Part shown: positions 3,088 to 42,459 of the stretch, piece after piece | Numbering within the stretch: position 1 is the first letter of the stretch | How the letters are laid out: each line of letters begins with the position of its first letter | IMG/VR virus record: IMGVR_UViG_3300034102_000967 | Span: 1 to 42,769 of that record | Reading direction: 5' to 3' (one strand) | Source: a virus | DNA: 42,769 bases | The notes under the pieces: model-generated | Database searches by the model: none | Told to the model about the DNA's origin: nothing | The model's input: the letters and a program-made list of their open reading frames with translations, nothing else | Translations under genes and position numbers: made by a program

Positions 3088-3246
3088 TTACCAATGTCTG
3101 ATGACACCAGCAATAATAAACAGGTTAGTAATGATATAGGTTAGTACAATAATGGTACGAACAAGTGCTACTGAATCAGCTTCTTGATCAGTAGCACCTG
3201 ATTTTTCACCTAATGCTTTAGCCCATAAACGCCAAAGCCTTTTCAT
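3088..3246 (-). CDS. Small one-helix membrane protein
   Basis: 52 aa, too short for most ORF filters. It has a basic N-terminus (MKRLWRLWAKALG), an acidic linker, then one hydrophobic helix (about residues 29-47, rich in I, V, L, T) and a charged IRHW tail. Small proteins of this layout are common in T4-like marine phages; their role is unknown. The start overlaps the stop of the QueD-like gene as TAATG. The last codons are immediately upstream of the kdsA start. A small holin or antiholin is possible but unsupported. Confidence 0.75.
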   Translation of the reverse strand: MKRLWRLWAKALGEKSGATDQEADSVALVRTIIVLTYIITNLFIIAGVIRHW

Positions 3247-5352: not shown

Positions 5353-6486
5353 TTAACTTCCAATTTTGCCAAACGGTGCCCATATGCCAGGACTTCCGGC
5401 TTGCAGGCAAACCCATCCAACATATGCATTCATTCTAGGTTCTATGTTCCACACGATATCTCCGGCATTGAATGCTCCAGCGATAGGATATGTTTTGTCG
5501 TATTTCTGTAAACGCCCGTTGAATTTGATAGATCCATTTACATGTAAGTCCACTTCTGGATCTGGGGTATTAACTTTGATCGCCAACTTGCCATGTACAG
5601 AAACTTGTACAGGCATAGACTTGGTATTGCCTAGTTGTATATTTCCAGATGCACTGATTGAAATTCGTGCGGTGTTATCTGTTACGATATCAAATTGCTG
5701 GCTAGCATATGTTCCAACTATTCCCCGAACACTATCTCTGGTTCCTAACATCACTTCAATGGCATCTTCAGCGACAGAAAATGCTGCATTGGGTTCCTCT
5801 GTGCCTAACCCTAGTCTATCTGCAGATCCATTATAGAACAAATAGTTATTGATGCTGACTGAGCCATCCACTATCAATCCTTTAAGCCTTCCTAGTTCTC
5901 TAAGACTACTCTTAACCACGCTGGTACCTAATTCTGAATCATCTAATACTTTAATGCCGTTTACACTGTAATGTCTGCCTTTGGCTAGATCTAAAATCTC
6001 AGAACTAAAAAATCTATCTGGACCTGAATTAAAAACAAATTGTTTGGTATGTCCTTGCCCGGCCCATAACATACCTTTTCCGTAGATGTTATCTCCACTG
6101 AATACGATTGGCGTATTTTTTTCAAATTGTATATCAGCTTTGATTTCTTTGACTTCAAGGATATCAACTGATAACTTTTTAGTTTTAACCTCTTCGGAAA
6201 ATATAGTTCCGTCTACTGTGAGATTTTCTTGTATATTTGAAACTTTAAGAGTCGTGATCGATACGGCATCGTCTCGAACGACGAGTTGTTCTTTGCTAGC
6301 GAGATCGGTGATCCCGGCACTGGCAAATTTCAGTATCTTTCCGCCGTTGATATGATCGCCGCTGAGCGATCGTTTTGGCATTTTTTCGATAAATGTCAGA
6401 GGATTATTTAGAAGAGATTCTGGATCTTGTTTTTCTAATTCATCTGCTAACGCGGCTAGTACTTGACGAAGGTTGGTTTTATTCAT
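5353..6486 (-). CDS. Tail-fibre-like structural protein, copy 1
   Basis: 377 aa from ATG 6486 (MNKTNLRQVLAAL); an upstream TTG at 6507 falls in the terminator region. Blocks shared with the next gene are FVFNSGPDRFFSSE, DSELGTS, LRELGRLKGL, LGLGTEEPNAA and TDNTARISISA, ending in VGWVCLQAGSPGIW. The N-terminal ~110 residues, rich in VxxITTLKVSNIQENLTV-like beta strands, are absent from the shorter copy and may attach the fibre. It is downstream of a strong terminator and carries its own GATAAATA box, so it probably starts a late transcription unit. Confidence 0.72.
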   Translation of the reverse strand: MNKTNLRQVLAALADELEKQDPESLLNNPLTFIEKMPKRSLSGDHINGGKILKFASAGITDLASKEQLVVRDDAVSITTLKVSNIQENLTVDGTIFSEEVKTKKLSVDILEVKEIKADIQFEKNTPIVFSGDNIYGKGMLWAGQGHTKQFVFNSGPDRFFSSEILDLAKGRHYSVNGIKVLDDSELGTSVVKSSLRELGRLKGLIVDGSVSINNYLFYNGSADRLGLGTEEPNAAFSVAEDAIEVMLGTRDSVRGIVGTYASQQFDIVTDNTARISISASGNIQLGNTKSMPVQVSVHGKLAIKVNTPDPEVDLHVNGSIKFNGRLQKYDKTYPIAGAFNAGDIVWNIEPRMNAYVGWVCLQAGSPGIWAPFGKIGS

Positions 6487-6493
6487 GGTACTG

Positions 6494-6501
6494 TATTTAT
6501 C
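6494..6501 (-). promoter_or_regulatory. Late-promoter-like GATAAATA box
   Basis: GATAAATA on the minus strand only 7 nt before ATG 6486, just after the terminator of the upstream gene. It matches the NATAAATA late consensus. The short distance would give an almost leaderless mRNA, which weakens the call. Confidence 0.4.
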
Positions 6502-6504
6502 AGC

Positions 6505-6534
6505 CAAAGAAAAAGCGGGCCTGAGCCCGCTTTT
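6505..6534 (-). terminator. Rho-independent terminator
   Basis: Ten-base arms AAAAGCGGGC and GCCCGCTTTT around a 4-nt loop, 17 nt after the stop of the 391-aa hypothetical gene. U-tracts exist on both strands, so it could act bidirectionally. It separates that gene from the tail-fibre pair. Confidence 0.85.
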
Positions 6535-6551
6535 ACTGTAAATTTACTTTG

Positions 6552-7727
6552 TTATTGCACTTTTAACAACACAGTATCTTCGTTAATACGTCCGTTGAGC
6601 TTGATATCTACAGCCTTGATGTCCTCTAAGAACTTACGCAACTGTACTTTGCCCGCAGCCTTGAACTCTTTCAACTGTTCTTCTGGCTTACGCAGAGTCT
6701 TTTGCACACTCTTGATAGGATCAAACCCAGTTAAGCTGGTACCTTTTACACCCAATTCTTGATATTCAGCGGCCACATACTTACCCAACTTCCTAGTTTT
6801 GGTATTGAAAATCCAAAGCTCTTTGGCGCTGATGATATCTGTGGGATTAATAGATACCAGTTTGAGTTTTTCTTCCGACTTTAGATATTTGAGCTTAGAA
6901 ACCAGCTTGTCTTTTGGAACCGCTTTCTTGGCTCGAGGCTTCTTATTAACCTTGGCTTCTTGCATCAACATGTCGCAGGCACTGAGAATCTCGTGATAGA
7001 ACAATGTAATCTTCTTAAGATTTGCTTTGCTAAGATGGCTATAACCTTCTTTAAGCTGTTCGTCTTTGGTGGTAGCAGCTTCAACTAGCTCGTCGTGTTG
7101 GCGTGTGTACAGGTCTTTGATAATGCGAGCATGGGCCGCCTTGACTTCTTTACCACGTAATAGGTTCAACAGTTTGAATGCTTTTGGATCAAATGTATCT
7201 GGATCTTGAGCGAATGCTTCAAGAGCATCTTCGATTTCTTCAGTCATCCTATAGCTTGCTTCTCGAACACGTTCTTGAATGCTAGGTTGTACAACTACAG
7301 AAACAGAAACGTCTGCAACCTCATCGTTGTCAGTGTCAAACTTGCCCTCATCAACTACTTTAGAGATAGCCTCTCCCAACCACTGTGCAGTATTTCGACC
7401 GTCGTTGAAGTCTTCTCGTACAGGCGGCATCCCTCGTAGCAGATTGGCTGCGATAGCACCCATAGTAGTTCCGCATCGATTGTCTTTGGTCTTTTTAAAC
7501 TGGGCGATTTGTTCTTTGGTATAGCCAGTTTGGCTCATCCAATTAATGACTTTGGGTTTGAGTTCTTTAGAGCTAGACTCCAGACGATACCAAGTCATTG
7601 CCGAGTGGAAATGACGCAAGAACTGATCGGTACTCCAAGTCTCATGACCTTCCCATTTTGGGGAAAAGTCCTTGCCTTTTGCCGATCTTGCATGAGCCAA
7701 ATGTTGGGCTTTGGTTTTAGTAGCCAT
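6552..7727 (-). CDS. Conserved phage hypothetical, 391 aa
   Basis: 391 aa, not recognised as a named family. The N-terminal ~60 residues are rich in W and K (KWEGHETWSTDQFLRHFHSAMTW). The middle (~150-260) is a charged, probably helical region (ERVREASYRMTEEIEDALEAF). The C-terminal third is Lys-rich with FNTKTRKLGKY and a TGFDPIKSVQKTLRKP segment. No signal peptide or membrane segment. It has its own terminator and lies between fibre genes and small hypotheticals. It may bind nucleic acid or be a structural helper; neither is demonstrated. Confidence 0.7.
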   Translation of the reverse strand: MATKTKAQHLAHARSAKGKDFSPKWEGHETWSTDQFLRHFHSAMTWYRLESSSKELKPKVINWMSQTGYTKEQIAQFKKTKDNRCGTTMGAIAANLLRGMPPVREDFNDGRNTAQWLGEAISKVVDEGKFDTDNDEVADVSVSVVVQPSIQERVREASYRMTEEIEDALEAFAQDPDTFDPKAFKLLNLLRGKEVKAAHARIIKDLYTRQHDELVEAATTKDEQLKEGYSHLSKANLKKITLFYHEILSACDMLMQEAKVNKKPRAKKAVPKDKLVSKLKYLKSEEKLKLVSINPTDIISAKELWIFNTKTRKLGKYVAAEYQELGVKGTSLTGFDPIKSVQKTLRKPEEQLKEFKAAGKVQLRKFLEDIKAVDIKLNGRINEDTVLLKVQ

Positions 7728-34446: not shown

Positions 34447-35007
34447 TTAGATATCGCCTTCTCGTTCTCGATGTGCTCTACGCTCTGCGGCAAGAACAAA
34501 GACTTTTTCGTTGTCGTTAGTCCATTCTACAGCTTTAGGAAGAATGATTCCAAACTCAGTTGTTTGACCGTTAATAGTGTGTGGCTCATTCTCGTCGTAG
34601 GTCCAACCTAGTGCCTTCATCATACGATGCTTAACTAACAGGTTAGGACTACGAAACACCTCGGTGTCATTAAAGCCTAACATTACTCCGATTTCACAGA
34701 CAGCACCAGAACGGCACACACCTGCTACACAGTGAACAACAACGTTCATACGATTTTCCAATGCATGTTGTAGCAGTCGAACAAGCTCGTCGGCCTGCTC
34801 TTGGCTGCACCTCATGGCTTCTTCTAAGACCTCGTCTTTAGCTTCGACGTCCAAAAACTGAAACTGATGGACTTCTTTGAACTGGTGCTTAGGTGTAGGG
34901 AAGTCTCCAGGAGGATCCACAATTTGAATCAGCATAGAGTTTATGCCAGCATCGAAATGAAACCCTTTCCGAATATCGCTGAGTGCTACGTTTTGAATCC
35001 AAGGCAT
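34447..35007 (-). CDS. Dual-specificity protein phosphatase
   Basis: 186 aa from ATG 35007, which has a GGAGAT Shine-Dalgarno; a TTG 12 nt upstream is not favoured. VVVHC93VAGVCR99SG is the HCX5R phosphate-binding loop, and an upstream Asp region (FLDVEAKDE) can provide the general acid. It would remove phosphate from Tyr/Ser/Thr or from a nucleotide end. Many T4-like phages carry such a protein, presumably to alter host signalling. It is followed by a terminator and lies right after the release-factor gene. Confidence 0.85.
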   Translation of the reverse strand: MPWIQNVALSDIRKGFHFDAGINSMLIQIVDPPGDFPTPKHQFKEVHQFQFLDVEAKDEVLEEAMRCSQEQADELVRLLQHALENRMNVVVHCVAGVCRSGAVCEIGVMLGFNDTEVFRSPNLLVKHRMMKALGWTYDENEPHTINGQTTEFGIILPKAVEWTNDNEKVFVLAAERRAHREREGDI

Positions 35008-35009
35008 AA

Positions 35010-35687
35010 TTATCTCCAAAGTAAATCGAAATTGCCATTCATTATTTTTTTAACACTAGCGGTCTTGCCGCTGATGTGATCCTGTACTCTATCATCTTGA
35101 AAGCGGTAAGTGCGAATCTTGTCTCCTCGCATCCCCGACCCAACCTGTTGCTTTCTATCGTAGGCGATGTTATCATTATACTGTCTTTCCACAGCATTGT
35201 CAATGCGTTGTTGTATTTCTGACATAGCAGATTCTAGACTATTTTGTCGTGAGCGGCATTCTGATTTGGCAATGACGCCTGACGGGATATGTGTGATTCG
35301 ACAACTGTTCTGATGTTTGTTGCGATATTGTCCTCCAGCACCGGTACCGCTATACCATTCGATTTTTAAATCACCGGACGGTATAGCAACCTTTATCAAC
35401 GGTGTGCTGGTGTCTATGACGGCTACGGTCACAGTGCTGGTATGAACTCTGCCCTTGCGTTCCGTAGGAGGAACACGTTGTATTCTATGTCCACCTGGCT
35501 CGTTATCTAAGCCTGATAAATCTGCGCCCTCAGCTTCTAAACTACACTCGCCAAGACGCACATCTATAAGGCGGGTAGTTCAACCCAGTTTCATTCCTAA
35601 TTTCGAGTACGCTTGTGCTAGATCGCTAACAAACAACTTGCTATCTTCACCGCCTTCTGCGGCACGGATTTCGATTACACGTTTCAT
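35010..35687 (-). CDS. Class I peptide chain release factor, RF1-like, with an in-frame TGA
   Basis: Reading from ATG 35687 (Shine-Dalgarno AAAGGAG, ATGA overlap with the upstream gene) gives 35 residues ending ...SKLGMKLG, an in-frame TGA at 35580-35582, then 189 more residues in the same frame. The first part holds the PCRF-domain start (VIEIRAAEGGEDS). The second part holds GGHRIQRVPPTERKGR with a PxT codon-recognition tripeptide, as in RF1 (reads UAA/UAG), and TGAGGQ, the peptidyl hydrolysis motif. The TGA sits where homologues have a conserved Trp, so one G-to-A change explains it. A GTG 19 nt after it could restart. Either a readthrough-controlled gene or a mutant. Confidence 0.88.
35580..35582 (-). 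other. In-frame TGA codon inside the release-factor gene
   Basis: Codon 36 of the reading frame that begins at ATG 35687. Both halves of the same domain are in one frame around it. Other genes of this window end in TGA normally, so TGA is not generally recoded. Confidence 0.9.
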
Positions 35688-35902
35688 TGGTTTCTCCTTT
35701 TCATCCATGTATATGGTGTGCCATCCGGACACTTACCATCTTTGATTGAGTCGGCTCCGAACAAGCCAACTATTTCCATCCCATCACCGTTTATTGTAAC
35801 GAGGATTCCTAGTGCTTTAGCAAATGCCAAAGCTGCTGATAGATCTTTTACTTCTTCCTCACAGCCTCTGCCCGCTGTGTCTTTCCATTCTACTTTATAC
35901 AT
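35684..35902 (-). CDS. Small conserved phage hypothetical, 72 aa
   Basis: 72 aa: MYKVEWKDTAGRG, EEEVKDLSAALAFAKALG, VTINGDGMEIVGLFG, ADSIKDGKCPDGTPYTWMK. I know this pattern (YKVEWKD...DSVKDGKCPDG) from T4-like cyanophages; the role is not known. Its TGA overlaps the release-factor ATG (ATGA), so the two proteins are produced together. Confidence 0.72.
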   Translation of the reverse strand: MYKVEWKDTAGRGCEEEVKDLSAALAFAKALGILVTINGDGMEIVGLFGADSIKDGKCPDGTPYTWMKRRNQ

Positions 35903-36220: not shown

Positions 36221-36294
36221 TGGTGCTCTAACCAAGAATCGAACTTAGAATACCGACATACCAAGTCGGTGTTATACCATTTAACTATAAGAGC
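36221..36294 (-). tRNA. tRNA-Thr(GGT)
   Basis: Loop TTGGTAT between CCGAC and GTCGG. Acceptor GCTCTTA/TTAGAGC has one T-T mismatch; D-stem GTTA/TAAC; encoded CCA. First of the array. Confidence 0.88.
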
Positions 36295-36298
36295 ATTT

Positions 36299-36373
36299 TG
36301 GTCCGGCGTACAGGAATCGAACCCATATTCGCACTTTAGAAGAGTGCTGTATTGTCCATTATACGAACGCCGG
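36299..36373 (-). tRNA. tRNA-Arg(TCT)
   Basis: Loop CTTCTAA in stem GCACT/AGTGC; T-arm TGGG, TTCGATT loop; encoded CCA. Four bases from the Thr gene, so processed from one transcript. Reads the AGA/AGG codons. Confidence 0.9.
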
Positions 36374-36946
36374 CTAGATGTATTCTATATCAGCAGCTAA
36401 GATAAATCTATATTGTTCGCTTTGCACGATGCCCGGGCGATGCCATTGATCGCTGGGATAGATTAACCAATTGTAGTCTGTGGGTTTGACAAAAAACTTG
36501 TCATCTCCCTCAGGCCCGTTTGGAGCCATTTCAGTGCCGCAGTAATCACGATCTTTAACATCATCGGGGATGTGTAAGTAGAAGATCCCACTTAGCATCT
36601 TAGAATTAGGATTTTTTGGATGCCAATGATGATGCCATAGATTGTCTCGATTTTCGGCACCCTGGAGATTTGTCATAAAACTCCAAGCCATCATTTCAGA
36701 GACTTTGACTTCTCTTCCGAGATACATGAACACTGAAAACATGAAACTCATACGGTATTTTAACCACACAGCTTCCTGTCTAGCAAATATGTTTTCTTTG
36801 GTTTGAAACTTAGGTGAGTTGGTGAAGTAATTACCCTCTGCAATGACTGACTTTATTATGCCTACGGCTGTTGCATTATCTTCGGGCGTAATTACTGAAC
36901 TGAAATCAAATTTTCGAAAGGTATCGTTTTGATCTATTACTTGCAT
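36374..36946 (-). CDS. 2-oxoglutarate/Fe(II) oxygenase, phage type
   Basis: 190 aa. H105HHWH109P contains the metal His pair, MLSGIFYLHIPDD follows as a strand, YPSDQWH169RPG is the distal His, and SEQYR180FILAADI the 2OG-binding Arg. This is the 2OG-Fe(II)-oxygenase family 5 type. The stop abuts the preceding Arg tRNA, so it lies inside the tRNA array. A fourth dioxygenase-like gene in the window. The substrate is not deducible. Confidence 0.78.
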   Translation of the reverse strand: MQVIDQNDTFRKFDFSSVITPEDNATAVGIIKSVIAEGNYFTNSPKFQTKENIFARQEAVWLKYRMSFMFSVFMYLGREVKVSEMMAWSFMTNLQGAENRDNLWHHHWHPKNPNSKMLSGIFYLHIPDDVKDRDYCGTEMAPNGPEGDDKFFVKPTDYNWLIYPSDQWHRPGIVQSEQYRFILAADIEYI

Positions 36947-36950
36947 ATTA

Positions 36951-37024
36951 TGGAGCGGAGTGAGAGAATCGAACTCTCGACCGAAGATTGGAAATCTGCT
37001 GTTTTGCCATTAAACTAACCCCGC
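36951..37024 (-). tRNA. tRNA-Gly(TCC)
   Basis: Loop TTTCCAA; acceptor GCGGGGT/ACTCCGC; T-arm GAGAG/CTCTC; encoded CCA. Confidence 0.9.
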
Positions 37025-37042
37025 ATACATTTATTTAACTTT

Positions 37043-37117
37043 TGGTCTCGCCACCAGGAATCGAACCTGGATTTAATTCTTAGGAGGAACTCGTTCTATC
37101 CATTGAACTACAGCGAG
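37043..37117 (-). tRNA. tRNA-Arg(CCT)
   Basis: Loop CTCCTAA in stem AGTTC/GAATT; encoded CCA; D-arm with GGATAG. Overlaps the next gene's stop boundary by a base. Confidence 0.88.
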
Positions 37118-37300
37118 TTAATCTTCATCCGGTGGATTGGCCAACGGACTAGTGGATGGCTTTTTCTTTGACCAAGATGAATAGCTTGCACCATCAACCC
37201 TTCCACTTTGATTTTGTTTGAGTTGTTGCACCACTCCGCCCTTTGCGAAAAATTCTTCTAGTGCTCGATCCAATGCTTCTTTATTATCTTCTTTAGTCAT
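37118..37300 (-). CDS. Small phage hypothetical, 60 aa
   Basis: 60 aa, between two tRNA genes: MTKEDNKEALDRALEEFFAKGG, VQQLKQNQSGRVDG and a Pro/Ser-rich KKKPSTSPLANPPDED tail. N-terminal amphipathic helix and a disordered end. Shine-Dalgarno AAAGG before ATG 37300. No family recognised. Confidence 0.6.
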   Translation of the reverse strand: MTKEDNKEALDRALEEFFAKGGVVQQLKQNQSGRVDGASYSSWSKKKPSTSPLANPPDED

Positions 37301-37320
37301 ATGGCCTTTTTATAAAAACT

Positions 37321-37398
37321 TGGTCGGAGTACAAAGATTCGAACTTTGGACCCCCTGGTCCCAAACCAGGTGCGCTAGCCAGACTGCGCCACACTCCG
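37321..37398 (-). tRNA. tRNA-Pro(TGG)
   Basis: Loop TTTGGGA in stem CCTGG/CCAGG; T-loop TTCGAAT; encoded CCA. Seven-base acceptor CGGAGTG. Confidence 0.92.
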
Positions 37399-37401
37399 AA
37401 A

Positions 37402-37477
37402 TGGTTGCAGGAGTCGGAGTCGAACCGACGATCTGGAGCTTATGAGACTCCCGAGATACCACCTTCTCCATCCTGCG
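37402..37477 (-). tRNA. Initiator-type tRNA-fMet(CAT)
   Basis: Loop CTCATAA gives CAT. The acceptor begins C1 and ends A72 (TCCTGCA then A73, CCA), the unpaired C1-A72 that marks bacterial initiator tRNAs for formylation. The usual three G-C pairs below the anticodon are not kept (stem GGAGT/GCTCC). Adjacent to the Pro tRNA, 3 nt apart. Confidence 0.8.
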
Positions 37478-37807
37478 ATAACTTTATTGAAACATACTCC
37501 CAACAAATGTCTTATGTTTGTTGTACCGTGTGCTAGGCACATTCTCTTGCGGACTCCCCCGGGTTTGGGCAACGTAGACGAAGAGTATATTTTAATAAAG
37601 TGTCTGGCTACTCCCACCACAGGAGCCCCAGACTGAGCGGTTACTCTGTCCATAACATTTGTTCTTCTGGCATTGGCGTTATACCTCACCCTAGGCAGTT
37701 TTCAGGATCTCCGAACGGGAGACTGTAAGGTCAGGTCCTAGTGTACCCCCTGTTCTATCGTTTCAGGGACGCTGTTTTATAACGTAAAAACAGTAAACCG
37801 GGGTCTG
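37478..37807 (-). ncRNA. Gene-free stretch with strong hairpins, candidate structured RNA
   Basis: About 330 nt with no plausible gene between the fMet tRNA and a coiled-coil gene. Seen on the minus strand: hairpins at 37501-37523 (CAACAAA/TTTGTTG), 37602-37633 (GTCTGG/CCAGAC enclosing CTCC/GGAG), 37708-37722 (TCTCC/GGAGA), and 37772-37793 (CTGTTTT/AAAACAG). No tmRNA, RNase P or 6S signature was recognised. Strand assigned from the tRNA array, not from evidence. Confidence 0.45.
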
Positions 37808-38383
37808 TTAGATCAAGCCTTCTGCTTGCAGTGAAGCCACTACTTCATCACTCAGAGGAATCTCTGTCTTGATGTTTAACTCAAGGATTTCGTCGTTGAG
37901 CTTTTGCTTCTGCTTCTTGAGATTCAGGATCTCTGCTTTGGCCTGATCAATCTGGGCCTTGCTCATCACCGAAGTGCTGACGGTGTCGCTGTAGCCATAG
38001 ATACTACGACGGCTTGTTTCGCCCTTGTCGTTCTTGATCTTATCAAGTTTGCCCTTGATAACATCGAGATCAGTGATCTCTGTGGCCTTGGCCAATTCTT
38101 CTAGCTGGCCGATACGCTTGTCGATAAACGCTGCCTTAGCGAGGTTGGTATCGATGCCGCTTTGTGCGTTGGCAGTACCTACCAATGCTCGGATGTTATA
38201 CAACGCCATAGTCAGGCGCTGACGACGGCCATCATTGGCCACCATGTCGCTGTTGGCTTTGGCAAGGGCGGTCTCGACATTAACAAACTCGTTGAGTTCG
38301 ACTGTGAGCTCTACCTTGATGCTCTTAACTGCATCGTTGATGCTGTTTTGAATTGCACTGGCTTTTCTTAGTGTGATATTCAT
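37808..38383 (-). CDS. Coiled-coil phage protein, 191 aa
   Basis: 191 aa. N-terminus [23 protein letters not shown], helix repeats rich in A, K and E, a Gly/Ser-rich break ([18 protein letters not shown]), then a long heptad-like helix ([22 protein letters not shown]). Resembles coiled-coil proteins in T4-like phages of unknown role. ATGA overlap with the omega gene upstream. It may bridge proteins, e.g. to RNA polymerase, but this is inference only. Confidence 0.7.
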
Positions 38384-38610
38384 TCTCTCTGTCCTTTCGT
38401 TTTCTTAGGTAAACTATCGTACCATTCTTTTTTAGTATACTTGCCTTCTTCTATCTCTCTCAATGCCGTTACGATAAACGTAGCATCTTTGCCTTCGACT
38501 CTCTGCACATGACCATTCTTGAGCTCTCTGGCTCTGTGTGATGCCATCAACACCAAATCAAATCTGCCTCCAGCCATTTCGGCTGCTGCCTCTGAAGTGT
38601 ACCTAGCCAT
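38380..38610 (-). CDS. rpoZ: RNA polymerase omega subunit-like protein
   Basis: 76 aa. [33 protein letters not shown] and [15 protein letters not shown] match the bacterial omega pattern closely (GxRFDLVLxAxxRAR; [11 protein letters not shown]). Omega stabilises beta' and is needed for the ppGpp/DksA response. It is shorter than host omega (~90 aa) at the C-terminus. Good Shine-Dalgarno (AAAGGAG) before the ATG. Co-occurs with a DksA-like gene 2.5 kb away. A phage copy may exchange with the host subunit. Confidence 0.85.
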
Positions 38611-38943
38611 GTGGCTCCTTTAAGTTAAAATGACGGGTCCATGAAAGGTCAAGTAATAGACCGGACAATATGCAACGGAAGGTTTGTAATCTTCCTTTGA
38701 CAATGTGCAATATACAATACACAGAGGTCCATATATTTCCGATTAACAAATGACATTCTATTAGGGATCGGATCACATAAACACGTTCCATTGTTCAGAT
38801 GGTTGTAAGTTTGGAGTAAGCATGAAGCTCACGCCTTTGTGTCTATCCTCGTCTACCCTTCACTTCACCGGTTGAAACATTTCTGTCCCAACAAAACTAT
38901 TATACAACAATTAACTTGATATGTCAAGTCTTTTCGGTAATCT
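38611..38943 (-). other. Gene-free stretch, no feature identified with certainty
   Basis: About 330 nt between the omega gene and the next tRNA. One 62-aa frame (38603-38791) overlaps the omega start and looks spurious. Small hairpins are present (GGAAG/CTTCC at 38677-38695; GGTC/GACC at 38647-38662). It is probably the leader of the omega transcript or a small RNA; no decision is possible. Confidence 0.35.
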
Positions 38944-39018
38944 TGGTGCCGGTTGTCGGGATTGAACTGACGACCTACCGCTTACAAGGCGGTTGCTCTA
39001 CCACTGAGCTAAACCGGC
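38944..39018 (-). tRNA. tRNA-Thr(TGT)
   Basis: Loop CTTGTAA in stem ACCGC/GCGGT; acceptor GCCGGTT/AACCGGC; encoded CCA. Confidence 0.92.
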
Positions 39019-39071
39019 ATTAAAAATGACATACTACTTATCTTATTATACACCATATGTCAGGGTGAATT

Positions 39072-39147
39072 TGGTGGAGGTGACAGGACTCGAACCCGCT
39101 ACCTACTGCTTGCAAAGCAGCCGCTCTCCCAGCTGAGCTACACCCCC
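39072..39147 (-). tRNA. tRNA-Ala(TGC)
   Basis: Loop TTTGCAA in stem GCTGC/GCAGT; acceptor GGGGGTG/CACCTCC (one G-U); encoded CCA. Confidence 0.92.
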
Positions 39148-39157
39148 AATTAACTAA

Positions 39158-39370
39158 TTAATCTCTAGTCGATGCAGTACCGGTGGGATTCTTCTGATAA
39201 CCACCCGGACCAGCAGGTCTCTTTTCACGTTTAGGTTGAATGGCAGCACATAGTTCAGCGTCAATACATGCACGTTTCCACGCACCACGTTGATGTGCAT
39301 CTTTGAACTTGCCTGTGGCTAAACTAATTTTAAGCAGCGAACTCATTCTATAATTTGGACCTGGTTTCAT
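39158..39370 (-). CDS. Small basic phage hypothetical, 70 aa
   Basis: 70 aa, pI clearly high: MKPGPNYRMSSLLKISLATG, GAWKRACIDAELCAAIQPKREKRPAGPGG and a disordered NPTGTASTRD end. Basic and Pro/Gly-rich, perhaps nucleic-acid binding. It lies inside the tRNA array between Ala and Ser genes. Start ATG 39370. Confidence 0.6.
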   Translation of the reverse strand: MKPGPNYRMSSLLKISLATGKFKDAHQRGAWKRACIDAELCAAIQPKREKRPAGPGGYQKNPTGTASTRD

Positions 39371-39394
39371 ATATTTCCTCTTTTAAAAAACATT

Positions 39395-39484
39395 TGGCGG
39401 AAGACCGGGGACTCGAACCCCGAAGCCGTTTTAAAGCGACCGACGGTTTAGCAAACCGCTCCAATACCATTATGGGAGTCTTCC
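39395..39484 (-). tRNA. tRNA-Ser(GCT)
   Basis: Loop TTGCTAA in stem GCGGT/ACCGT; discriminator G, long variable arm (class II); acceptor GGAAGAC/GTCTTCC; encoded CCA. Confidence 0.9.
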
Positions 39485-39491
39485 GTATTAC

Positions 39492-39583
39492 TGGTACCAG
39501 CGGAGGGAATCGAACCCTCTCAAGAACGCTAATCTGGCGCTAAAAGGTTTATAAAACCTCTCTGACTACCAAGTCTCGCTGGC
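39492..39583 (-). tRNA. Class II tRNA with apparent TAT anticodon
   Basis: Acceptor GCCAGCG/CGCTGGT with a G1-U72 pair, A73, encoded CCA. The anticodon arm is a near-palindrome centred on TAT (loop TTTATAA; stem GAGGT/ACCTT). The long variable arm (AGCGC/GCGTT) is of Ser/Leu/Tyr type, whereas TAT would be Ile(AUA), a class I tRNA. Identity therefore ambiguous. Confidence 0.75.
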
Positions 39584-39592
39584 ATAACTCTA

Positions 39593-39667
39593 TGGTGGAA
39601 GTTAAAGGGATTGAACCTTTGACCTTGACCGTGTAAGGATCCTGCTCTACCGCTGAGCTAAACTTCC
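39593..39667 (-). tRNA. tRNA-Val(TAC)
   Basis: Loop CTTACAC in GGATC/GGTCA (one mismatch); acceptor GGAAGTT/AACTTCC; encoded CCA. Confidence 0.88.
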
Positions 39668-40098
39668 ATTTCTATTTTGAAACACACTCGAGCCCAGGTC
39701 CTACGGCGTGCTCATCCGTTTCCTAAACTATGTCTAGTCTTTGAATGTGTTTTAGAATAGTGGCGGACTGAGAATACATCCTAACCTATTAGCACCTCAA
39801 GCATTATATGCCACCTTGCGAGCAACACTTCTCTTGACTTCCACTGAGCCCTATTGCTAGGTATCCCAGTCTGCTAACAGCATCGCCGTTTTTAAAGACA
39901 GGCAGTAGTCTTATCATCATATGCTATTCTACGCTTTAATTTCCGTTAACCTTGCGAGCTATTCGAGTGCGCTAACACCCTACGAAACTTCTAGCATAAA
40001 CTAGTATCACCTTGCGAGCTTTACTAGACTCGGTTAGCTTGCGCCCCGAGCGTTAGATGCTTTTCACATATGACTGAGGTAGTCTTTGCGTTTTGTAA

Positions 40099-40171
40099 GA
40101 TAGAAGGAATTGAACCTCCAGGCTTCTGTTTAAGAGACAGATGCTCGACCATTGAGCTATATCAACCTACT
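40099..40171 (-). ncRNA. tRNA-Lys(CTT)-like domain nested in the large RNA
   Basis: D-arm GCTC/GAGC, anticodon arm TCTGT/ACAGA with loop CTCTTAA (CTT), and a T-arm GGAGG, TTCAATT, CCTTC. No proper acceptor stem and no CCA. It is enclosed by a perfect 7-bp helix of GAGGTAG (40076-40082) and CTACCTC (40180-40186), so it is probably a domain of a longer RNA, not a free tRNA. Confidence 0.6.
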
Positions 40172-40651
40172 GCGATGTGCTACCTCGACTGCTTCATACT
40201 CTTTTGGAATACAAAATACAGCACACCACGTACCTTTCCTCTCGCGGAGTAATCAGTCGTCTTTCGCGACCAATGTCTACATATTGCTACGCATCCATCG
40301 ACCACTAAAACTGCATACGAGCTCTTAGGTGCGACCCTTCGAACCAATACACTACCCTTTCTCATACTAATTAACTGGACTGGTTTAGTTGTGAAGACAG
40401 CACCACCTGTTTCTTTCCATCTACTCAAGTTCCCCTTGCGGGCTTGTAAGCAAACGTTCTTTCCACAACATCCGGCGTCATTGATACAACCACCCGTCGC
40501 TGAGTGATCGGACCCTCACGGGCCTGAGCAGGCTTGTCTAAATGAACTATCACTAGCGGAGTTATGTAGGCATACCTCCTTTGGGCATATCGCTATGCTT
40601 ATTCTTCGTAGACGGCAAGCCGCCTACAGGATGTTAAACCACCCTTGAAAT

Positions 40652-40759
40652 CTTATACAACTGCACACTCCCGGGAATCGAACCCAACCATATCGCCCAG
40701 GGCGACACTGTGCTCCACCACATCAGCGTGGCCTACGCCTTTGTGTGCATGTGTATAAG
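40652..40759 (-). ncRNA. Second tRNA-like domain in the large RNA
   Basis: Closed by CTTATACA/TGTATAAG (8 bp) and GCACAC/GTGTGC (6 bp). The 3' part has a T-arm-like TTGGG, TTCGATT, CCCGG. No canonical anticodon arm or CCA; TCGCC/GGCGA forms a tight hairpin in its place. Confidence 0.5.
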
Positions 40760-40931
40760 AACTCTTTCCATTAATTGAAAGCACTATAGCCCTACGGGAC
40801 TTAGCGAATTTCTGAGTGGAGTTCGATTCTCCTCATAAGCCATTGCCACGGTTGTTTCAGAAGAGTAAGATGGCCCTATTCTTCATGAGTCTAAGCGTCC
40901 TTAGACGATACCCGTCAATGCCTTCAATTAA

Positions 40932-41015
40932 TGGTGCGCAAGGAGAGACTCGAACTCTCAATCCTTTCGGCAATGGCTTCTAAGACCATCGTGTATACCA
41001 TTCCACCACTTGCGC
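40932..41015 (-). tRNA. tRNA-Leu(TAG)
   Basis: Loop CTTAGAA in stem ATGGT/GCCAT; class II variable arm; acceptor GCGCAAG/CTTGCGC; encoded CCA. Confidence 0.9.
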
Positions 41016-41131
41016 AAAATTACTAACTTAAATTTTTAATGAACGTTTAACTAATTTCTTAGTATGTGTATATTGTACACTCTAATCTATCATCTGTCAA
41101 TGCATTTTGGTTAACAACAAAAAAATATTTT

Positions 41132-41208
41132 TGGTACTCTTGGAGAGACTCGAACTCTCACTCGCTATCCCCTCAAGATAGTGCGTCTACCAATTGCGCC
41201 ACAAGAGC
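41132..41208 (-). tRNA. tRNA-Leu(GAG) with short variable arm
   Basis: Loop TTGAGGG in CTATC/GATAG; T-arm GAGAG/CTCTC; acceptor GCTCTTG/CAAGAGT with a G-U first pair; encoded CCA. The variable region is only ~5 nt, unlike other bacterial Leu tRNAs. Confidence 0.75.
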
Positions 41209-41210
41209 AT

Positions 41211-41294
41211 TGGTGCGAGTGGCGGGACTCGAACCCGCATGCCTTTCGACGGCAGATTTTAAGTCTGCTGTGTATACCATTCCACCACACTCGC
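41211..41294 (-). tRNA. tRNA-Leu(TAA)
   Basis: Loop CTTAAAA; class II variable arm; acceptor GCGAGTG/CACTCGC; encoded CCA. Adjacent to Leu(GAG). Confidence 0.92.
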
Positions 41295-41299
41295 AATCT

Positions 41300-41375
41300 T
41301 GGTGCTACCTAGAGGGATCGAACCTCTTTCAACGGTGCTTCAAACCGCCGCTATGACCACATCAGCTAAAGTAGC
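41300..41375 (-). tRNA. tRNA-Phe(GAA)
   Basis: Loop TTGAAGC in GCGGT/ACCGT; acceptor GCTACTT/AGGTAGC; encoded CCA. Confidence 0.85.
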
Positions 41376-41379
41376 ATAC

Positions 41380-41470
41380 ATATCTAAACACACTAGCCAC
41401 CGCAGATCCACGATGCCGCAGGCTAGGCCCTAAGAGCTACACTCGTTCTTTCACTAGTGCGTTTAGATAT
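41380..41470 (-). ncRNA. Small RNA with a 17-bp closing stem
   Basis: Arms 41380-41396 and 41454-41470 pair over 17 bp (one G-U) around a 57-nt interior with GC-rich helices. No tRNA features. Between the Phe and Val tRNA genes. Its stem resembles one at ~39683-39765 (AAACACAxxC / GxxTGTGTTT), suggesting a repeated element. Confidence 0.55.
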
Positions 41471-41544
41471 GGTGGATGATGCAGGGTTCGAACCTGCGAC
41501 CGCTTGGATGTCGACCAAGTATTCTACCACTGAAATAATCATCC
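41470..41544 (-). tRNA. tRNA-Val(GAC)-like, C33
   Basis: Loop TCGACAT between CTTGG and CCAAG; C instead of the near-universal U33. Acceptor GGATGAT/ATCATCC; encoded CCA. D- and variable regions resemble Asp tRNAs, so identity is uncertain. Confidence 0.7.
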
Positions 41545-41948
41545 TAGTCTTGTACTGTAGTATCAACCACATCAACACTAACACTTTCGGAATAGTATCC
41601 ATTGCTGGAACCATACCATCGAACAGTCACACTACCTTTTCGTGTACGAAAACGATAGAATGTCCATGTGTAAGACTCGTCTCCTGTAGCTTCACCTTCA
41701 TAATCAGAAACTTCTTCAGCTTCAACTAGTGGTGCTCCAACTAGATCGTTGAGATCTCCGCAGATATCTTCTATGTAAACATGTTCGCAACAATCTTGGT
41801 TATGTTGGAATCTTACATAGTTTGTCTTAGACAGATACAAAGTTAGTACTTCACTGTCTGCTTCTACCTTGTATAATGTTCGTCCTAGAAGTTCCTTGAA
41901 CTCTCGAACAGAACCTTTTAATGTATTAAATGTTTTTATTTTTTCCAT
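41544..41948 (-). CDS. DUF7448-like phage protein
   Basis: 134 aa from ATG 41948 (MEKIKTFNTLKG), the upstream open frame being tRNA sequence. FQHNQDCCEHVYIEDICGDLNDLVGAPLVEAEE and SYTWTFYRFRTRKGSVTVRWYGSSNGYYSESV match a phage family I recall as DUF7448. The CC pair in the first segment is invariant in what I know of it. Function unknown. Its stop abuts the Val tRNA. Confidence 0.75.
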   Translation of the reverse strand: MEKIKTFNTLKGSVREFKELLGRTLYKVEADSEVLTLYLSKTNYVRFQHNQDCCEHVYIEDICGDLNDLVGAPLVEAEEVSDYEGEATGDESYTWTFYRFRTRKGSVTVRWYGSSNGYYSESVSVDVVDTTVQD

Positions 41949-41964
41949 GATATTTCTACTTCGT

Positions 41965-42038
41965 TGGGTTGAACCGGGGAATCGAACCCTCTCTAACTGT
42001 TTCACAGACAGTTGTGCGACCACTACACTAGGAACAAC
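41965..42038 (-). tRNA. tRNA-His(GTG)
   Basis: Loop CTGTGAA; extra G-1 opposite C73, the His identity signature; encoded CCA. Confidence 0.9.
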
Positions 42039-42044
42039 ATTGAT

Positions 42045-42119
42045 TGGTGCGCTCGGATGGAATCGAACCACCGTTCCGAACTTCGTAGGATCGTGTATTC
42101 TCCACTATACGACGAGCGC
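42045..42119 (-). tRNA. tRNA-Arg(ACG)
   Basis: Loop CTACGAA; acceptor GCGCTCG/CGAGCGC; encoded CCA. Confidence 0.88.
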
Positions 42120-42122
42120 AAA

Positions 42123-42290
42123 TTATTGTTTAACTTTCTCTAATGCATCTTTACGCATTAGAAATTTTCTATCTTGAATCGTTCTGCTAACCAATACATA
42201 CTCTATGCCGTCAATTAGCTGAACTTCTTTGAGATCGTTGCAAACTACTCGTTCGCCGTTGAACTTGTTCTTGAGTGTAATTGTTTTCAT
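42123..42290 (-). CDS. Small conserved phage hypothetical, 55 aa
   Basis: 55 aa: MKTITLKNKFNGERVVCNDLKE, IDGIEYVLVSRTIQDRKFLMRKDALEKVKQ. I know this pattern (MKTITLKNKFNGE...FLMRKDALEKV) from T4-like phages; role unknown. It lies between tRNA genes, with AAGGAAAT as Shine-Dalgarno. Confidence 0.7.
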   Translation of the reverse strand: MKTITLKNKFNGERVVCNDLKEVQLIDGIEYVLVSRTIQDRKFLMRKDALEKVKQ

Positions 42291-42305
42291 AACTATTTCC
42301 TTGTA

Positions 42306-42380
42306 TGGCCGGGCTTAGAGGAATCGAACCTCTACCTGCGGTTTCGAAGACCGTAATGATATCCATTTCACCAAAGCCCG
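42306..42380 (-). tRNA. tRNA-Arg(TCG)
   Basis: Loop CTTCGAA; acceptor CGGGCTT/AAGCCCG, G73; encoded CCA. Confidence 0.88.
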
Positions 42381-42385
42381 ATATG

Positions 42386-42459
42386 TGGCAGAGGGTATAG
42401 GAATCGAACCTATAATCACAGAGTCAAAGTCTGTTGTTATACCATTTAACTAACCCCCA
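42386..42459 (-). tRNA. tRNA-Gln(TTG)
   Basis: Loop CTTTGAC in ACAGA/TCTGT; G73; encoded CCA; first pair T-T. Confidence 0.85.

Follow-up and report, generated by a model that had tools for sequence, protein, structure and literature searches.

A release factor gene lies on the minus strand of the window (the whole stretch of viral DNA analysed here, 42,769 nucleotides), running from an ATG at 35687-35685 to a TAA at 35012-35010 and interrupted at codon 36 by a TGA, at 35582-35580, on either side of which the reading frame is uninterrupted. A preliminary description of this DNA had placed an in-frame TGA at a conserved Trp position at exactly these coordinates. With the codon read as Trp, the product is 225 amino acids long. 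The features of the locus are:

35010..35687, minus strand: RF1-type release factor gene without domain 1 (domains 2-4), from the frame, Pfam and PDB matches and an AlphaFold2 model
35580..35582, minus strand: codon 36, an in-frame TGA that takes the place of Trp in a conserved Gly-Trp; TGA in 104/104 distinct relatives
35694..35699, minus strand: Shine-Dalgarno sequence AAGGAG, 5' of the release factor ATG, from the sequence
35553..35579, minus strand: codons 37-45, where synonymous constraint in the gene is strongest, from synonymous identity; candidate cis element
35463..35471, minus strand: P-P-T (RF1-type PxT) stop-codon recognition motif, residues 73-75, aligned with the PVT of RF1
35328..35336, minus strand: GGQ peptide-release motif, residues 118-120, invariant in every class of phage factor described below
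36221..42459, minus strand: tRNA array of 21 genes upstream of the factor, with no TCA anticodon, from a tRNA search of the window

When the TGA is translated as Trp, the window protein gives a Pfam PCRF match over residues 4-88 (E 2.8e-20) and an RF-1 match over residues 98-204 (E 9.5e-20), which make up one continuous factor; Thermotoga RF1 aligns along residues 2-221 with W36 on a Trp, the one that follows a Gly in bacterial RF1, and RF1 ranks first among the PDB sequence matches. The preliminary description was thus right in assigning both sides of the TGA to a single release factor, and also in recognizing an RF1-type PxT motif, given the alignment of P-P-T and the retention of Q70, H82 and T83. 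The AlphaFold2 model, built on the family alignment with a mean pLDDT of 83.7, compares with ribosome-bound RF1 at a TM-score of 0.84 by query length, and the predicted fold is that of RF1. Purine-rich sites of the AGGAG type precede the ATG in most relatives. The profile of PHROG 19918, filed as of unknown function, covers the whole length of the window factor (E 1.2e-43). Overlapping the end of the release factor gene is a further gene (34447-35019, minus strand) for a dual-specificity-phosphatase-like protein, whose DSPc match (E 7e-7) is below the Pfam cut-off and which has a Cys-x5-Arg loop.

The internal TGA and its genomic setting

According to the preliminary description the in-frame UGA is functional, and TGG in related phages would instead have spoken for a sequencing error. 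Relatives were sought in IMG/VR in a first scan with the window protein, whose close relatives all have TGA at codon 36, and in two further scans with alignments; among these relatives the codon is TGA in every one of the 104 distinct full genes, with no other codon found there, and the functional reading holds. A codon-aligned set of 99 rows, with a lowest pairwise identity of about 52% and GC3 of 17-61%, has TGA at codon 36 in all 99, TGG for W111 likewise in 99 of 99 and TGG for W224 in 98, with no second in-frame stop in the factor gene in any row. Conservation of the protein is strong on either side of the TGA, both halves being constrained as one factor. Restart at an internal start codon is rejected, since the ATG immediately upstream of the TGA lacks conservation among relatives. 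The 104 genes end in TAA (98), TGA (5) or TAG (1). Directly after TGA36, the 99 rows have A (75), G (22) or C (2) and never U; in E. coli, a U in that position reduces readthrough (PMC5289835). At one locus (L036), an antisense ORF of 306 amino acids with a weak DUF7487 match (5672-6592) directly follows the release factor stop, and beyond it the last 35 residues of the factor are encoded a second time (6582-6686); the arrangement looks like the insertion of a mobile element with duplication of the gene end.

Codons 37-45, whose consensus begins ACT ACC CGC CTG ATA, have an observed/expected synonymous identity of 1.72 among 88 divergent genes, about 3.9 SD above the gene's windows. There is no conserved hairpin at the TGA site (RNAalifold gives 4 pairs at -0.95 kcal/mol, with no covariation) and no Rfam match, on which grounds selenocysteine insertion and a structured stimulator are both rejected; homologues, moreover, have Trp, Phe, Leu or Tyr at the site, and the 3' hairpin of a selenoprotein gene is missing.

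Six near-complete relatives were read, namely G001 (363,943 bases) and five others of 318-369 kb. TGA ends 82-205 called genes per genome, or 22-51% of called genes; UGA is an ordinary stop in the window gene's family, and the code is standard. The absence of a TCA anticodon, noted in the preliminary description for the array, is true of the window and extends to all six genomes. Each of the six has tRNA-Trp(CCA) and tmRNA genes, and the factor gene of these relatives is located within or close to the tRNA/tmRNA island and shares the strand of those genes. An all-frames scan of the six genomes for in-frame stops flanked on either side by homologous protein showed the codon-36 TGA of the release factor to be the only conserved in-frame stop common to them all; no other readthrough site was shared by all six, and most other matches were antisense frames. 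A suppressor tRNA is rejected on two counts, the lack of any TCA tRNA and the mostly ordinary character of the phage tRNA-Trp(CCA) genes, which show no consistent suppressor feature, neither a shortened anticodon stem nor an A24 change. Five of the six genomes also carry a tRNA gene with a CTA anticodon (ARAGORN 'Pyl'), although TAG still serves as a stop; these are candidate amber suppressors:

G001, 339529-339603: CTA-anticodon tRNA
G010, 363408-363482: CTA-anticodon tRNA
G018, 255570-255644: CTA-anticodon tRNA
G014, 157384-157460: CTA-anticodon tRNA
G017, 258611-258769: CTA-anticodon tRNA

The wider phage family and two bacterial copies

Alignments A3 and A4 brought in more remote phage factors, which were sorted into three classes. 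Class A has TGA at the same Trp site as the window gene and includes L379, L382, L385, L389, L390 and L392. Class B has a +1 frameshift at this site, as in CGGAGGGGT CTT TGA C, and by a refined count 72 of its 80 loci have CTT followed by a stop, which is TGA in 56, TAG in 14 and TAA in 2. At L474-L553 (for example L366, about 3100-3112), the RF1-type genes carry the prfB slip site in its textbook form, with SD-like GGAGG, CTT and stop. The class B recognition loops are near-identical across differing gate stops; the few S-P-x loops sit with TAG or TAA gates (L509, L528, L538, L507), which hints, from few independent cases, at a correlation between gate stop and loop. Class C consists of megaphage factors (loci L323-L354, L339, L374) whose in-frame stop, TGA or in some cases TAG, comes about 16 codons later; two have CTT TAG slip sites. 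Some class C genomes look poor in TGA stops, which may reflect a changed code, possibly mixed with recoding. The overall reading of the preliminary description survives as to a selected in-frame UGA, but it overlooked the related phage factors that have a prfB-like +1 frameshift at this site.

On a quick tree with RF2 as outgroup, the phage factors group together in a clade (SH-aLRT 95) that stands beside the eight bacterial RF1 sequences included and not among them. Class A is one group except for L355 (support 86), class C is one group (support 96) and class B is spread over the rest, its gate stop changing at least 11 times.

Among stop-codon recognition residues, the RF1-type set of P-P-T, Q70, H82 and T83 is kept in class A, with P-P-T in 30 of 31 rows, and its retention makes it reasonable that the window factor would read UAA and UAG and that its gene would sense host RF2 at UGA. 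At the equivalent of Glu119 (chain numbering of the PDB match), which adjoins the codon-recognition site, the Glu of bacterial RF1 and RF2 gives way to Asp in all 31 class A rows, all 18 of class C and 62 of the 65 of class B. None of the bacterial factors compared has this Asp, a substitution that might widen or alter stop-codon specificity.

Factor genes with TGA at codon 36 are also present in Jiella sp. LLJ827 (L394, 8001-8684) and in a Rhodospirillales MAG (L395, 8001-8699), both on alphaproteobacterial chromosomes, where the TGA-interrupted gene encodes a third release factor beside two ordinary full-length ones that are taken to be RF1 and RF2. The neighbours in L395 are carB and an oligopeptidase-like gene, which are housekeeping genes, and those in L394 we take, from a reading of the ORFs, to be rnhA, ispH and cytochrome-oxidase genes, also housekeeping. 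Such bacterial copies are rare, with one among 298 genomes in the family of G023 and one among 385 in the class of G024.

Probable readthrough and its alternatives

With a UGA conserved at a Trp codon, in an intact gene and in phages that use UGA as a normal stop, readthrough by near-cognate tRNA-Trp is the simplest reading, and we consider it probable that programmed UGA readthrough at codon 36 sets the level of the phage RF1-type factor. Consistent with this are the synonymous constraint at codons 37-45, tRNA-Trp(CCA) in all six near-complete relatives, the absence of U after the TGA, the RF1 residues and predicted fold, the slip site of class B at the same place and the TGA kept by both bacterial copies; the lack of a conserved hairpin and of consistent suppressor features in the phage tRNA-Trp genes argues against it. 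Ribosomes would initiate at a good Shine-Dalgarno sequence and arrive at UGA36, where fast termination would release a useless 35-residue peptide, and slow termination would allow near-cognate Trp-tRNA(CCA), encoded by host or phage, to insert the ancestral Trp and so give the whole factor. How often readthrough occurs would depend on how RF2 and tRNA-Trp compete, output of the factor rising as host RF2 grows scarce relative to tRNA-Trp; by taking UAA (and UAG) stops the RF1-type factor would then free RF2 for UGA, a negative feedback through the shared UAA. From sequence comparison we infer the readthrough itself, the insertion of Trp, RF2 sensing and the UAA feedback. RF2 sensing with this feedback is a tentative proposal, held with slightly more doubt than belief; it rests on the RF1-type residues. 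Asp at the Glu119 equivalent, which could alter the specificity, counts against it, as does the free exchange of UGA and UAG gates in class B with an unchanged recognition loop, yet RF2 sensing, put forward in the preliminary description, is the leading idea, ahead of a factor that reads UGA itself.

Such direct autoregulation, in which the phage factor when abundant would terminate at its own codon 36 as RF2 does, is a sub-model of programmed readthrough, so that its probability overlaps that of the broader explanation, and we judge it unlikely. The Asp for Glu in nearly all phage factors speaks for it, as do the class B gates: near-identical loops face TGA, TAG and TAA with at least 11 changes among them, which a reader of all three stops would explain and which contrasts with prfB, where TAG is the gate in 0 of 8,164 genomes (PMC12421855). 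It sits poorly, however, with the RF1 set kept in class A; class C, seemingly TGA-recoded, has the same Asp, although a factor reading UGA would be harmful there, and the S-P-x loops of class B accompany TAG or TAA gates, the opposite of self-sensing if S-P-x reads UGA.

Less likely still is an attenuator without sensing, by which the UGA would simply hold the factor at a few per cent of initiation, a release factor lacking domain 1 being harmful when abundant. A conserved leaky stop would serve this end, and overexpression of RF2 is toxic in Bacillus subtilis (PMC12421855), but a weak ribosome site would suffice, with neither a conserved codon nor constraint downstream of it, and class B has an elaborate slip site known in prfB as a sensor.

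It is very improbable that these phages read TGA as Trp throughout (code 4), codon 36 then being a plain Trp codon: distant megaphage relatives do have in-frame TGA elsewhere and seem poor in TGA stops, but for the window gene's family this is refuted by the stop usage given above, with some release factor genes themselves ending in TGA, W111 invariably TGG and no TCA tRNA. The chance of a sequencing error or a decayed pseudogene is negligible, as nothing beyond the one-base distance of TGA from TGG suggests either, and the TGA of all 104 distinct relatives, together with the strongly conserved protein on both sides, rules out both.

Significance and comparison with known systems

Taken together, the sequences may mean that the release factors of phages form a branch of their own next to bacterial RF1, one in which an internal stop codon ordinarily controls expression: the clade of the window would do so by zero-frame UGA readthrough and another clade by a prfB-type +1 slip with UGA, UAG or UAA, both at one and the same position in the protein. 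Such factors would be the first bacterial-type release factors under readthrough control, and perhaps the first natural ones that read all three stops or are gated by a codon they do not read; over this wider view our belief and doubt are evenly balanced. If it is true, a phage senses and balances the termination factors of its host. With these genes, the tuning of termination by phages during infection becomes directly testable, and many candidate natural UGA readthrough sites are at hand for study. The factor belongs to a large family of giant phages that carry their own termination protein. There is also a warning for annotation, in that the nearest PHROGs family is labelled 'unknown function' and ORF callers split such genes in two.

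The window factor resembles bacterial RF1 (prfA) in its domains 2-4, PxT and GGQ, and its nearest curated model is NF001859/TIGR00019; it differs in lacking domain 1, in the Asp at the Glu119 equivalent and in the internal UGA. It scores below the cut-offs of both RF1 models (195 bits against 400 for NF001859, 190 against 423 for TIGR00019), which align with it only from profile position 107-115 on and so not at full length. Programmed frameshifting was not found in bacterial prfA (PMC12421855). Release factor H (prfH) is likewise without domain 1 (PMC1586002), and its model TIGR03072 matches the window factor weakly, the 35.8 bits falling well short of the cut-off of 166.65. The huge phages of Al-Shayeb 2020 (PMC7162821) likewise encode release factors along with tRNA arrays and tmRNA; that paper lists release factors in such genomes, its main text mentioning neither a frameshift nor UGA in them, and the code changes it describes concern other phages, whereas the window family uses UGA as an ordinary stop and it is the gene itself that would be recoded. 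In the open-licence literature we met no previous description of recoding in the release factors of phages.

What the window gene shares with prfB, the RF2 gene, is an internal UGA early in a release factor gene as its likely gate, the conserved stop at codon 36 standing before most of the coding sequence in all 104 genes. The preliminary description had likened bacterial RF2 genes to the in-frame case, which is incorrect, as they use a +1 frameshift at the internal UGA, with the site CUU UGA C and nearly always TGA as the stop (PMC12421855). The window gene, by contrast, would be read through in the zero frame, encodes a P-P-T factor without domain 1 and has no CUU-stop slip site with an SD-like sequence. 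Class B has both, with the same slip site and an upstream SD-like GGAGG, and differs from prfB in having UAG and UAA gates as well.

According to a 2016 review on frameshifting, in-frame UGA readthrough was once considered for the self-control of RF2, at a time when gene sequences were not yet available; the review states that none of the bacterial RF2 genes sequenced is built in this way and that an RF1/UAG counterpart is unknown, and the only readthrough case it names is that of a giant amoeba virus (PMC5009743). The layout that the review describes is fixed in more than 100 distinct phage genes and on two bacterial chromosomes, with the prfB frameshift at the same place in their sister group of phage factors. 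Closest to the window gene in this respect are R726 of Mimivirus and mg280 of Megavirus, which are also virus-encoded release factors with a conserved internal UGA read in frame and whose recoding is the only one identified in those genomes (Jeudy et al. 2012, PMC3521657); they belong, however, to the eukaryotic/archaeal eRF1 family, are found in viruses of amoebae and have an additional frameshift, and they amount to two viruses as against 104 distinct phage genes here.
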